From Chlorobiaceae bacterium (GTDB taxonomy: Bacteria; Bacteroidota; Chlorobiia; Chlorobiales; Chlorobiaceae): a stretch of DNA of 64,000 bases. Position 1 is the stretch's first letter; every line of letters starts with the position of its first letter. The notes under the pieces were generated by a model, which was not told the DNA's origin, ran no database searches, and worked only from the letters and a program-made list of their open reading frames with translations. Position numbers and translations under genes: made by a program. This document shows positions 1,250 to 62,097 of the stretch, in pieces. The DNA lies in NCBI GenBank assembly GCA_013334965.1, contig JAAXWO010000003.1:124001-188000 (forward strand). Reading direction: 5' to 3'.

Positions 1250-1377
1250 TTTCCTAGGATGATGGCAGATAATCATAGAGGGAATTATTGATTAAGCTAA
1301 ATCATTGTTATAAAAAAGTATGCTGAAGATATTGGAGTGAAGTCCCAGGAGTATTTGTATCTCTTTTTCTCTATCTC

Positions 1378-1500
1378 CCCGGGTTAAACCCCTCCTGAAT
1401 GTAGGAGGTTAAAACCCGGGGCAACTGAATGTAAGATATCTGAATGTCCGTCGGGCTAAAGGCCATCCTGAATGTGGGAGATCAACAGCCGGGGCAATAA
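1378..1500. repeat. Palindrome-rich dispersed intergenic repeat, related to the 59.8-61.7 kb array
   Basis: gggttaaaccc, ctcctgaatgtaggag, ggttaaaacccggggcaactgaatgtaagat and gtccgtcgggctaaaggcc share words and order with the 59.8-61.7 kb units. Confidence 0.7.
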
Positions 1501-38118: not shown

Positions 38119-41100
38119 GTGATGATGTTTTCCTCCCTTGTGATGAAGCCGGATAGAGTCGCTGATCCAACAAGTTGGGTCGGACATATTCCATTTGCTT
38201 TCTGGGTGATCGAAGCTGTAAAGCCATCTGTATTTGTCGAGCTCGGAACACATACCGGAAACTCATATTTTGCCTTTTGCCAGAGCGTTTATAACAACCA
38301 TTTGCCGACACGCTGTTATGCGGTAGATACATGGGCTGGCGACGAACATGCCGGTTATTACGATAATGCCATATATGAGGATGTGTTATCGTACAACGAA
38401 TCGCACTATTCCGGTTTTTCTTCCCTGCTTCGCATGACGTTTGACGATGCGCTCCAGCACTTCAGCGACAAATCGATCGATCTGCTCCATATTGACGGGT
38501 TTCATACGTATGAAGCCGTTAAACACGATTTTGAGACATGGTTGCCGAAGATCTCTTCACGCGGAATAGTTCTTTTTCATGATATTAACGTCAAGGGCAG
38601 GGGTTTTGGCGTCTGGAAATTCTGGGAAGAGATATCAGCCCGATATCCGCATATTGCATTTGACCAGTCGTACGGTCTGGGTGTTCTCGTCGTCGGTGAA
38701 GAACAACATCCTGCGATGGTTGACATATGCAACCTGTTTCAAACGTTATCCGGTCAATATTTCATAAAGGCAATTGTTTCGAGACTTGGCCATACGATCG
38801 CCCTTGAAAAACAAAATGATACATATAGCCAATTCATTTCCGAACGGGATGAACGGATCGGTACGCTCTCTCGGAGGGTGGTCGAATGCGATGATCAGAT
38901 CGGGGCGCTCTCTTCAGGGGTTTCCGAATATGAGGCACAGGTTTCCGGGTACGACGCGCAGATTCGCCAGTTCGCCCAGAGGGTTGCCGAGCGGGATGAG
39001 CAGATCGGTTCGCTGAAGGCGATGCTTCATGAGCAGACCCACAAATCGGCTGAACTCGAACATAACATCAACAAGCTCCTTCGTTCAAGCAGTTGGCGGA
39101 TGACCAAACCGATAAGGAAGCTCTCCAATTCGATCCGCAAGCGGGTTCGCAAGCTCAAGCAATTTCTCGGTATCAAAAAGTATGACAGCGTTTCAGCGCA
39201 GGAGAGGCCAATCAATAACGAATCTCCGGGTTCACAGTATTCCAGGGATCTCCGGGAGGCCTTCATCTCCCTGCATGGCAGGGCCCCGATCTATTTCCCG
39301 CCGGTAGACCTCCCGGTGGTCTCTGTCATTATACCTGTCTATCGCGGTCTGGCGGATCTTGAAACCTGCCTGCGTTCGTTGGCGGTGCATCTGGCGACTG
39401 AACCCTCTTTCGAAGTGATCCTTGTCGATGATTGCCCCGACGAGCCTTGTCTCTGGGCGATTCCCGACAGCGGCGGGTTATTGAAACTCGCAAATTCGGA
39501 GAACCTCGGGTTCCTGCTCACCTGCAACCGGGGCGCCGAACATGCGCGTGGCCGCCATATCTGTTTCCTGAACAGCGATACCATCGTTTCGTCCGGTTGG
39601 CTGAGCTCTCTTGTCGAAGCGCTGGAGGATACCAGGGACGCCGCGATATCGGGAAGCATGCTGCTGAACACCGACGGGACCATCCAGGACGCCGGATGGC
39701 GCATCCTGGACAACGGGTGGGGCTATCCGATCGGACGTGGCGCAGATACGCTCAATGGGGCATACACCTGTCGCCGCGAGGTTGATTGCGTGACTGGCGC
39801 GTGCCTGTTGATATCCCAATCCCTTTTCAGGGAGATGAAGGGGTTCGATCCGGGTCTCGCCCCCGCATTTTATGAGGAGTTCGATCTCGCGTTCCGTGTC
39901 CGTGCAAGAGGCCTGAAGGTGATATACGAACCCCGCAGCCGAGTCGTTCACCTGGGGAGCGCGTCGTACGGTGAGGAGCGGCGAAACCAGCTTTCAGGCA
40001 TCAATCACGCGAAATTCGTCAAGCGGTTTGAAAAGGTGCTTTCCAAACACCCGTCGGGAACAGAAGGCGAGTTTGCGCTTATGGAGGTCAACGGCCGTCC
40101 GTTGCTTCTGGTGGTCGATTATGGCGTGCCGCAGCCGAACAGGCATGCCGGCGACGTGACCATGAGCAGCTACCTCTCCCTTCTGGCTACGGCAGGGTGG
40201 CGGGTCGTGTTCTGCCCCATGGACGGCAAGGCACAGGGGCCTTTCGCCGAAGCTCTCGAGCGTCAGGGCATCATGCTGGTCAGGTCGCCCCAGACCATCG
40301 AAAGCTGGCTTGCGGAGCATGGCAGGCACGTCAGGGAGGTGCTGATGGCGAGGCCGGAAATTGCCGAGAAGATCATCGGTCAGGTGCGCAAGAACACTTC
40401 TGCCCACGTCAGTTACTATACCCATGACCTCCATTACCTGAGGCTGGAGCGGGCCGCAGAGGTGAACAACGACCCGAAACTGCTGGTTGAGGCTGATCTC
40501 CAGAAAAAGAGGGAGCTCTTTGTGTTCAGCAGCGTGGATCATGTGGTGTCGCCGAGCGAGGATGAAGCCGAGGTCATCCGCACCCTTGTTCCGGGTAAGC
40601 CGGTTACCGCCGTACCCCCCTACTATTATGAACCAGCAAACATCTGCAGTCACGATGCGTCCCATTTCGATCGCCTTGCCGATGTGGTATTTGTCGGAGG
40701 ATTCCCCCATGTTCCGAACGTCGATGCCGCCCTGTTCATCGCCAACGAAATTATGCCGCTCGTCTGGAAGGAAAGGCCGGATGCTCGCCTGGTTCTCGTC
40801 GGGTATTCGCCGCCGAAAGAGATTCTCGATCTCGCAGGCCCACGTATCCTCGTGACGGGACAGGTGCCGGACGTGAAGCCATACCTCGACAATGCCCGAC
40901 TGGTTCTTGCTGCCTTGCGCTATGGCGCCGGGGTCAAAGGCAAGACCGTCGACGCGCTGCGACTTGGGGTTCCTGTCGTGGCGACCCAGATAGGGATAGA
41001 GGGGATCGGTATCGTCCCGGGTCGGGAAGCCATCGTGGCGGAGAGTGCGCGGGATCTCGCAGGGGGAGTGCTGAAGCTGCTCTCAAGCCCGGAGCGTTGT

Positions 41101-58539: not shown

Positions 58540-59811
58540 ATGGCGCAGTTCCAGGCAGTAAAGGGAGCACGGGACATTTTTCCCGATGAGGTCGTCAGGT
58601 GGCACCATGTCGAGGGAGTGATCCGCTCGGTGGCCGCCTTGTACGGGTTCAGCGAAATCCGCACGCCGGTTTTCGAGTATACCGAGCTGTTCCAGCGAGG
58701 CATTGGGTCGACGACAGACATCGTCGGCAAGGAGATGTTCTCATTCCTGCCCGATCCCAACGGCCGCTCGATCACCCTCAGGCCGGAGATGACCGCCGGC
58801 GTGATGCGCGCCTGCCTGCAGAAGAACCTCCTTTCGCTGGCCCCGGTCCACAAGCTCTATTACATCAGCGATCTTTTCAGGAAGGAGAGGCCCCAGGCCG
58901 GTCGGCAGCGCCAGTTCTCCCAGTTCGGCGCTGAACTTCTCGGCGTCTCTTCGCCAGCGGCGGTTGCCGAGGTGCTCACCTTCATGATGCAGGTTTTCGA
59001 AACGCTCGGGCTGCACGGCCTGAGGCTCAGGATCAACTCCCTTGGCGACGTCGAAGACCGGGCCCGCTACCGTGAGGCGTTGCGCGAATATTTCCTTCCT
59101 TACGCAGCCGACCTCGACGAATCTTCGAAAGAGCGGCTTGAGAAAAACCCGCTGAGGATCCTCGACTCGAAGAATCCCGCCCTGAAGGAGATGATCGCCG
59201 GTGCCCCGAGGCTTTACGCTTACCTGAAACCCGAAGCCGTCGCCGATTTTGAAAAGGTGCTCTCCTTTCTTTCGGACAGGGCGATCGCCTATGACATCGA
59301 CCATCTGCTCGTGCGCGGGCTCGACTACTACTGCCATGCGGCTTTCGAGGTCACCAGCTCCGAGTTGGGCGCCCAGGACGCCATAGGGGGCGGCGGTCGT
59401 TACGACAGCCTTGCAAAGGAGCTCGGCGGCACTGCCGATCTGCCTGCCGTAGGGTTTGCCGTCGGCATGGAGAGGCTCATGATCGCGATGGAAAAACAGG
59501 GGCTGTTTGCCACCCTGAACCCGCACGGTCCCCTTGTCTATGTGGTGGTACAGCAGCAGGAGCTCTCCGACCACGGCATGCAGGTCGCCTTCAGGCTCCG
59601 CAAGGCCGGCCTCAAGGTCGAGATCGATCTCGCCGCACGGAGCATGAAGGCCCAGATGCGCGAAGCGAACCGTATCGGCTCATCATACGCGCTCTTTATC
59701 GGCCAGACGGAACACGAGTCGGGCCTCTATTCGCTGAAAAACCTCGTAACCTCCGAACAGACCTCTCTATCACTCGATGCCGTCATCGAAATCCTCTCCA
59801 CCCCGGGTTGA
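58540..59811 (+). CDS. hisS: Histidyl-tRNA synthetase
   Basis: [81 protein letters not shown]. Confidence 0.97.
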
Positions 59812-59817
59812 AACCTC

Positions 59818-61660
59818 GGGGCAACTGAAGAAAATATAAGATGATAATGTCCGCTGGGCTAAAGCCCTGCTGAATGCAGGAGGTCAAACCCCCTGTCCTT
59901 CGTCTTCAATATTCAGTCGGGTTTTAACCCGCCAGCCATTCTGCCCTTTTACATTCCAGCATCCCCGGACGATCCCACATGCATGAGTCCCGACTTGTCG
60001 GGACTCCGGACATTCAGCCCTCTTACATTCAGTAGCCCCGGATGATCCCACATGCATGAGTCCCGACTTGTCGGGACTCCGGACATTCAGCCCTCTTACA
60101 TTCCAGTAGCCCTGGACGATCCCACATGCAGGAGGAGTTCACTCCTCCGGACATTCAGCCCTCTCACATTCCAGTATCCCCGGACGATCCTACATTCGGG
60201 AGTCCCGACTTGTCGGGACGACGGACATTCAGGCCTCTTACATTCAGCAGCCCAGGACGATCCCACATTCAGGAGGAGTTCACTCCTCCGGACATTCAGG
60301 TCTCTTACATTCCAGTAGCCCCGGACTTCAGTCCGGGGAGAGCATGCCCTCCCCCGATCTTCGGGCTTCAGCCCAATATCTGTCACTGCATCAGCAGGGA
60401 TCATGATAAACCCGTTGAAGAGGTTGGACTGAAGTCCGGAATATTAATTTGATCATTTATCCCCGGACTGAAGTCCGGGGCAACTGAAGAAAATATAAGA
60501 TGATAATGTCCGCAGGGCTAAAGCCCTGCTGAATGCAGGAGGCCAAACCCCCTGGCCTTCGTCTTCAATATTCAGTCGGGTTTAAACCCGCCAGCCATTC
60601 AGAGTTTTTCAATTCCAGCATTCCCGGACGATCCCACGTTCAGGAGGCTTTCACTCCTCAGGACATTCAGCCCTCTCACATTCCAGTATCCCCGGACGAT
60701 CCTACATTCAGGAGTCCCGACTTGTCGGGACGACGGACATTCAGGCCTCTTACATTCAGTAGCCCCGGACGATCCCACATTCAGGAGGACTTCACTCCTC
60801 CGGACATTCAGACCTCTTACATTCCAGTAGCCCCGGACTTCAGTCCGGGGAGAGCATGCCCTCCCCCATCTTCGGGCTTCAGCCCAATATCTTTCACTGC
60901 ATCAGCAGGGATCATGATAAACCCGTTGAAGAGGTTGGACTGAAGTCCGGAATATTTTAATTGATCATTCATCCCCGGACTAAAGTCCGGGGCAACTGAA
61001 GAAAATATAAGATGATAATGTCCGCAGGGCTAAAGCCCTGCTGAATGCAGGAGGCCAAACCCCCTGTCCTTCGTCTTCAATATTCAGTCGGGTTTAAACC
61101 CGCCAGCCATTCAGAACTCTTACATTCCAGCATCCCCGGACGATCCTACATTCGGGAGTCCCGACTTGTCGGGACGTCGGACATTCAGCCCTCTTACATT
61201 CAGTAGCCCCGGATGATCCCACATTCAGGAGGAGTTCACTCCTCCGGACATTTAGAACTCTTACATTCCAGTAGCCCCGGACTTCAGTCCGGGGTGAGCA
61301 TGCCCCCCCCGATCTTCGGGCTTCAGCCCAATATCTTTCACTGCATCAGCAGGGATCATGATAAACCCGTTGAAGAGGTTGGACTGAAGTCCGGAATATT
61401 TTAATTGATCATTCATCCCCGGACTAAAGTCCGGGGCAACTGAAGAAAATATAAGATGATAATGTCCGCAGGGCTAAAGCCCTGCTGAATGCAGGAGGTT
61501 AAAACCTCGGGGCAACTGAAGAAAATATAAGATGATAATGTCCGCAGGGCTAAAGCCCTGCTGAATGCAGGAGGTTAAAACCTCGGGGCAACTGAAGAAA
61601 ATGTAAGATGTTAGTCCCCACAGGGCTAAAGCCCTTCTGAGTGTAGTAGGTTAAAACCTT
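59818..61660. repeat. Nested palindromic repeat array: three superunits plus 76-bp tandem tail
   Basis: ggggcaactgaagaaaatataagatgataatgtccgc recurs at 59818, 60477, 60989, 61433, 61509 and (diverged) 61585; inner gacattcag modules at 60009, 60082, 60150, 60224, 60291 / 60662, 60736, 60803 / 61180, 61247. Confidence 0.95.
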
Positions 61661-61854
61661 GTGGCATCAGAAGAAACTGTAAGATCTTAATGTCAGTAGT
61701 TCCGAAGTTTCAGGATTTCTGACATCAAAGAGGCTGAACCTTTGGTCAATTGACGAGAATTCAGGAGATTGAATCCGGGGGAGCCTGAATGCAGGTTCGT
61801 TTCTGCCCGGCGTTCTACCTGCACCCGAACGGCCATGAATTTATCGATGCACCC

Positions 61855-62097
61855 ATGAAACCACAGGTGATCATATACGGGAAACCCGATTGCTGCCTCT
61901 GTGACGAGGCCATGGAGGTTCTGGAGCAGGTCAGGAAGCGTATTCCGTTCGATATCCAGAAAAAAGACATCACGGATGACCCTGACCTTTCCGTGCGATA
62001 CGCCTACAGCATTCCCGTCATCCTCATCGACGGTCGCATGGCATTCAAGCATCGTGTGGAGAAGGATCGCCTCATATCCATCCTCAAGGGTCGTTAA
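61855..62097 (+). CDS. Glutaredoxin-like protein (DUF836 family)
   Basis: KPQVIIYGKPDCCLCDEAMEVLEQVRKRIPFDIQKKDITDDPDL; start trimmed to ATGAAACCAC. Confidence 0.85.
   Translation: MKPQVIIYGKPDCCLCDEAMEVLEQVRKRIPFDIQKKDITDDPDLSVRYAYSIPVILIDGRMAFKHRVEKDRLISILKGR

Follow-up and report, generated by a model that had tools for sequence, protein, structure and literature searches.

A nested repeat array between hisS and a glutaredoxin-like gene in a Chlorobiaceae genome: probable local amplification of a palindromic element associated with a subclass 1.2 Y1 transposase

What kind of sequence is the large nested array that separates hisS from a glutaredoxin-like gene in this genome, and how did it come to be there? 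The genome has a size of 2.48 Mb in 20 contigs and, judged by its named relatives, almost certainly belongs to the genus Chlorobaculum. The window analysed here is a stretch of 64,000 nucleotides (64 kb). Within it, hisS (58540..59811, + strand, assigned from its open reading frame and from orthologues) is followed after about 2.04 kb, which include three superunits and a tail, by a gene of the glutaredoxin-like family PF05768 (61855..62097, + strand, with the start set by homology).

The superunits all lie on the + strand, at 59818..60476 (superunit 1, 659 bp), 60477..60988 (superunit 2, 512 bp) and 60989..61432 (superunit 3, 444 bp). The marker GGGGCAACTGAAGAAAAT begins at 59818, 60477, 60989, 61433, 61509 and 61585, and by these positions the boundaries and lengths given in the initial annotation are exact. 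Beyond 61432 the array goes on until about 61694 as a tail (61433..61694, + strand, delimited by TRF) of approximately three and a half 76-bp units of the form GGGGCAACTGAAGAAAATATAAG...GCAGGGCTAAAGCCCTGC...GGTTAAAACCTC. TRF scores of 1926 at period 512 and 1572 at period 444 are far above chance. Two further short tandem repeats are found in the window, at 38837-38929 and 39681-39728, with periods of 42 bp and 21 bp.

The first module of every superunit, CCATTC(A/T)G, is degenerate, and after it GACATT(C/T)AG (one copy being GGACATTTAG) is counted five, three and two times, these being the numbers of inner modules originally reported. The hairpin-bearing modules are of two types, with the hairpins GTCCCGAC.TT.GTCGGGAC (type A) and GGAGGAGT.TC.ACTCCTCC (type B). 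Their order is AABAB in superunit 1 (59936..60292, + strand, 67-75 bp each), BAB in superunit 2 and AB in superunit 3, the shorter runs corresponding to the 3' part of the longer ones. Affine-gap alignment of superunits 1 and 2 (94.7% identity) places one 147-bp gap, equal to two modules, and two 1-bp indels, while that of superunits 2 and 3 (96.8% identity) places one 68-bp gap, equal to one module, and no further indel. The earlier reading of these length steps as two modules and one is thus borne out by single clean gaps. The modules at 60152 and 60664, which are positional counterparts, are 99% identical, and the extra A modules of superunit 1 have a private extended stem in common. These features fit a history of superunit duplication in which entire modules were also gained or lost on the 5' side.

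What the initial annotation missed is the nature of the superunits: the array consists of palindromic units that resemble mobile elements, and the ends of these units also flank a Y1 transposase gene. Each superunit has one palindromic unit, in which two convergent three-hairpin ends surround a core of ~45 nt. The layout at each superunit junction is H1 (CCCCGGACTTCAGTCCGGGG), a spacer, H2 (GGGCTTCAGCCC), the core, H2', a spacer and H1', with GGACATTCA..CTCTTACATTCCAGTAG and then a third hairpin (hp3) outward of H1. A complete end therefore reads hp3, a spacer with GGACATTCA..CTCTTACATT, an unpaired RTWG, hairpin H1, a spacer, hairpin H2 and AATWTCTT, and it is the part outside H1 that recurs in tandem as the inner modules. 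Folded as single-stranded DNA, one unit reaches -71 kcal/mol (z = -9.7).

A covariance model, R1, was built from 14 ends that flank transposase (tnpA) genes, all from other Chlorobaculum-type genomes and none from the host. In the window it finds three convergent pairs at 94-110 bits, exactly one per superunit, and few matches elsewhere. The left members, on the + strand, are at 60267..60384 (94.2 bits), 60779..60895 (94.8 bits) and 61223..61339 (96.5 bits), and the right members, on the - strand, at 60416..60534 (109.8 bits), 60927..61046 (106.5 bits) and 61371..61490 (106.5 bits). The remaining matches are edge pieces, such as an incomplete end (59735..59875, - strand, 59.3 bits) that lies at the array's 5' edge and overlaps the 3' end of hisS, and one distant, more degenerate copy (1324..1473, - strand, 55.8 bits).

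All three hairpins covary. Double compensatory changes are present in 20 of the 22 base pairs across 123 aligned ends, and none of 500 shuffles reaches the observed level; this alignment was fitted to the model, and an independent alignment of 14 sequences agrees on the covariation. RTWG (GTTG 78, ATTG 26, GTAG 9, ATAG 7) occupies the unpaired four-base position 5' of H1 in all but three of the 123 ends, the model having some pull on these bases. Unlike the RTWG side, the bases 3' of H1 are variable, and the orientation of the H1 loop is kept (TC in 97 of the 123). Such an asymmetry about H1 may be the trace expected if the ends are read as single strands with the help of a guide tetranucleotide.

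The site is empty in nearly all the other Chlorobiaceae compared, where hisS abuts the glutaredoxin-like gene; in many of them the start of that gene overlaps or abuts the hisS stop. R1 finds no ends at the empty hisS sites, two of these loci (L039 and L040) carrying one copy further downstream. The closest relative, G007 (91% in hisS), has about 350 bp at the site, consisting of one complete palindromic unit and one module, with a related core. Where the array begins, the last ~10 codons of HisS, which read ..REPAAREALKP* in relatives, have given way to ..STPG*, and the same ending is replaced in G007 too. Comparison of the orthologous sites thus shows that a unit was inserted between the two genes. 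The empty site in most relatives and the one unit in G007 indicate that one element was inserted and then amplified locally, and that it arrived before G007 and the host split. The array then grew in the host lineage or shrank in that of G007, growth being the simpler.

The initial annotation had suggested growth and shrinkage by recombination at two nested scales. Whole-module change does occur at both scales, here and at other arrays, and growth is supported by the orthologous site, with its one unit in G007 and none in most other Chlorobiaceae. Shrinkage has no such support, single steps not being open to polarisation, and homologous recombination was an assumption, slippage or transposase action being possible alternatives. 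In relatives the glutaredoxin-like gene starts within the end of hisS, and the insertion (59811-61855), by parting the two, may have cost them translational coupling.

Comparable arrays are found elsewhere in the host genome, which holds at least 89 element ends (all genome-wide end counts are lower bounds). On contig C8 a second array (C8:180346-182039) is built of three superunits, 370, 442 and 378 bp long and separated in length by gaps of 74 and 68 bp; these superunits are up to 94% identical to those of the hisS site. Further tandem superunits are present on C5 (316 bp x 7.9), C15 (286 and 364 bp, a difference of one module), C18 (306 bp x 4.5) and C3 (357 bp x 2.7), and runs of 72-74 bp modules are found on C12, C13 and C19. 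Units are 95-99% identical within a locus (with outliers at C8 down to 88%) and 64-76% identical between loci, and this greater likeness within loci argues that the arrays grow locally. Amplification is thus shown to have been local and by whole superunits and whole modules. The C8 units form a telling exception: compared with G007, their core has 79% identity to the hisS core and 57% to the one at the C8 site (maxima among shuffled sequences 56-59). It is therefore of the hisS-site type, so a unit type also passed from one locus to another, through either transposition or gene conversion.

The host genome has five Y1_Tnp genes, one of which (contig C13, 152 aa) lies inside these repeats and is bracketed by them. 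R1 finds no ends at the other four. These genes (L003 and L004, adjacent on C2; L002 on C16; L005 on C12) have open frames of 238-336 aa, and inverted hairpin flanks are absent from them. The C13 TnpA scores 71.7 bits against the NCBIfam profile transpos_IS200 (NF033573, cut-off 55) and 93.9 bits against PF01797. Its motifs DHIH, WQ and YINGQTEHH are those of TnpA Y1 subclass 1.2 (DH[IV]H, WQ, Y---Q--HH; PMC6006769), which it also resembles in its length of ~150 aa, its low copy number and its occurrence in Bacteroidetes-side phyla, and Y113, Q117 and H121 are invariant across 19 TnpA homologues. Identification as a RAYT was rejected, since the score against REP_Tyr_transpos is 21.5 bits (cut-off 80) and the motif is Y---Q--HH as against Y---NP in RAYT class 2.

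Homologues of this tnpA are found in 13 of the 21 genomes of the genus and are single-copy in 12 of the 13. They occupy five or more chromosomal sites across the genus, the site being conserved within subclades. Most have H1-H2 ends on both sides in inverted orientation; one, the gene of G007 (L142), is without adjacent ends. These data show that the element ends and the transposase gene go together. Quentin et al. reported that the typical terminal secondary structures are generally absent from subclass 1.2 TnpA (PMC6006769), and this published trait is contradicted by the inverted hairpin ends found at most of the loci tested. Four divergent subclass 1.2 genes, three in the sister genus (L147-L149) and one a second copy in G010 (L152), have flanks with hairpins of a different family, in which motifs such as CCCGTAGGGGCGGCATATTGGTAG occur.

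A strict H1-H2 pattern is found in 15 of the 21 genus genomes, with up to 39 copies, and in none of 65 sister-genus genomes; a reversed control never matches. With the covariance model, ends are detected in all 21, at 4 to 104 per genome (lower bounds). Genomes with and without detected tnpA have median end numbers of 35 and 15.5, respectively, a weak association (p = 0.05, phylogeny ignored). In 8 of the 21, ends are present and tnpA was not detected, among them G005 (at least 104 ends) and G015 (at least 25). The many ends in these two possibly reflect a lost motor, a missed gene or supply from elsewhere.

On the basis of these observations, in which mobility is judged by comparing empty with filled sites, we propose that the array probably arose when a palindromic, non-autonomous mobile element, linked to a Y1 transposase of subclass 1.2, was amplified in tandem on the spot. 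As the same ends flank subclass 1.2 tnpA here and in related genomes, the units look like MITE- or BIME-like derivatives of the element of tnpA. The transposase would move the units via single-stranded DNA, recognising them by their folded hairpins and using RTWG as a putative guide-like tetranucleotide. Tandem growth may have come from unequal recombination, from replication slippage on the hairpins, or from concatemers made by the transposase; most likely it was recombination or slippage, acting at both scales of repetition.

The array could instead be an ordinary minisatellite, in which non-mobile intergenic hairpins such as terminators were copied by slippage and unequal recombination, with the transposase uninvolved. 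The homogeneity within loci and the whole-module steps require nothing more than this, and arrays persist in genomes where tnpA was not detected. We nevertheless regard it as a rather improbable account, because the same point holds either an empty site or a complete unit, because an identical three-hairpin architecture recurs at tens of loci and around tnpA of other species, and because a hisS-type unit is present at C8. It is very unlikely that the array is a structured RNA or 3' UTR element, for example a terminator or a relative of the Acido-Lenti-1 RNA, that was retained for a role in hisS transcripts. Covarying hairpins downstream of genes would suit such a function, and H1 gives matches to Acido-Lenti-1 (RF01687); these, however, reach 23.9 bits, below the gathering threshold of 37, and no Rfam family matches above its threshold. 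The hairpins are moreover found in both orientations and as tandem palindromes, their presence is lineage-specific, and nearly all other relatives have the same site without the element. Least credible of all is an assembly artefact with the copy number wrong, for although 100-N gaps inside two other arrays (L117:7407-7506 on C13 and L122:2330-2429 on C12) indicate that such arrays do trouble assembly, there is no N in the hisS-site array or anywhere else in the window, the copies differ by 3-5% and have a private module order, superunit types differ between loci, and the gap logic recurs at C8.

For the transposase-linked element, the closest known system is REP/BIME/RAYT, comprising the REPtron and the tandem arrays of BIME-2. 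In that system extragenic palindromes form inverted pairs, and a single-copy transposase gene lies between two inverted copies (PMC2817692, PMC3733652). The present system shares with it the unpaired tetranucleotide 5' of a hairpin, the inverted pairs and the tandem mosaic arrays, and, as in a REPtron, the gene is bracketed by an inverted pair of palindromic repeats of which dispersed copies exist as well. It differs in having a transposase other than a RAYT and three hairpins per end. Where REPs have an unpaired GT(A/G)G head, the ends here have RTWG, in most cases GTTG and in nine exactly GTAG. CGTC beside some hairpins was at first suggestive of the CGTC-tagged REPs of Di Nocera et al., but those have an 8-9 bp stem and a 4-5 nt loop and rarely cluster, whereas H1 has a 9 bp stem, a 2-nt loop and dense clusters, and this candidate was rejected. 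As in IS200/IS605 elements (subclass 1.1, for example IS608), there is a small Y1 HUH protein, with hairpins at both ends and a tetranucleotide just 5' of the foot; unlike in these multi-copy elements, whose ends are not inverted, the ends are long inverted repeats, the motif is Y---Q--HH, there is as a rule one tnpA per genome, and no tnpB was seen. MITEs likewise are short non-autonomous units with inverted ends common to the units and the transposase gene; unlike in MITEs, target-site duplication is not established here, and Y1 chemistry would be single-stranded.

Inverted flanks are found beyond the genus. The 300-bp flanks on either side of the gene were compared at 30 subclass 1.2 loci from Chlorobiaceae and 11 Bacteroidota, and at 23 of these their inverted match lies beyond the 99th percentile set by 281 control ORFs. 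In a second set of 20 loci, all but one from outside the order, 13 exceed all 62 same-locus control ORFs (p = 1.3e-7, phylogeny ignored), and in several the Chlorobaculum model itself matches beside tnpA. Inverted flanks thus mark this transposase subclass across Bacteroidota too. In two Bacteroidota genomes that were counted, inverted flanks are present and the repeat is nearly single-copy and almost confined to the gene. Given that dispersed copies are hardly found there, mass amplification looks like a Chlorobaculum trait.

A search of the literature, which subscription journals mostly lay outside, gave no description of Chlorobi REP-like arrays or of subclass 1.2 ends. As a wider and more tentative suggestion, subclass 1.2 transposases might drive a REP-like system of Chlorobiota and Bacteroidota that works without RAYTs and has inverted ends of several hairpins, the enzyme in Chlorobaculum both dispersing non-autonomous units and making the tandem concatemers. 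The ends described here provide candidate DNA substrates, of defined sequence and fold, for an orphan class of HUH transposases, and would extend the logic of REP and BIME beyond RAYTs. The natural series from an empty site through one unit to three superunits offers material for studying how palindromic arrays grow.
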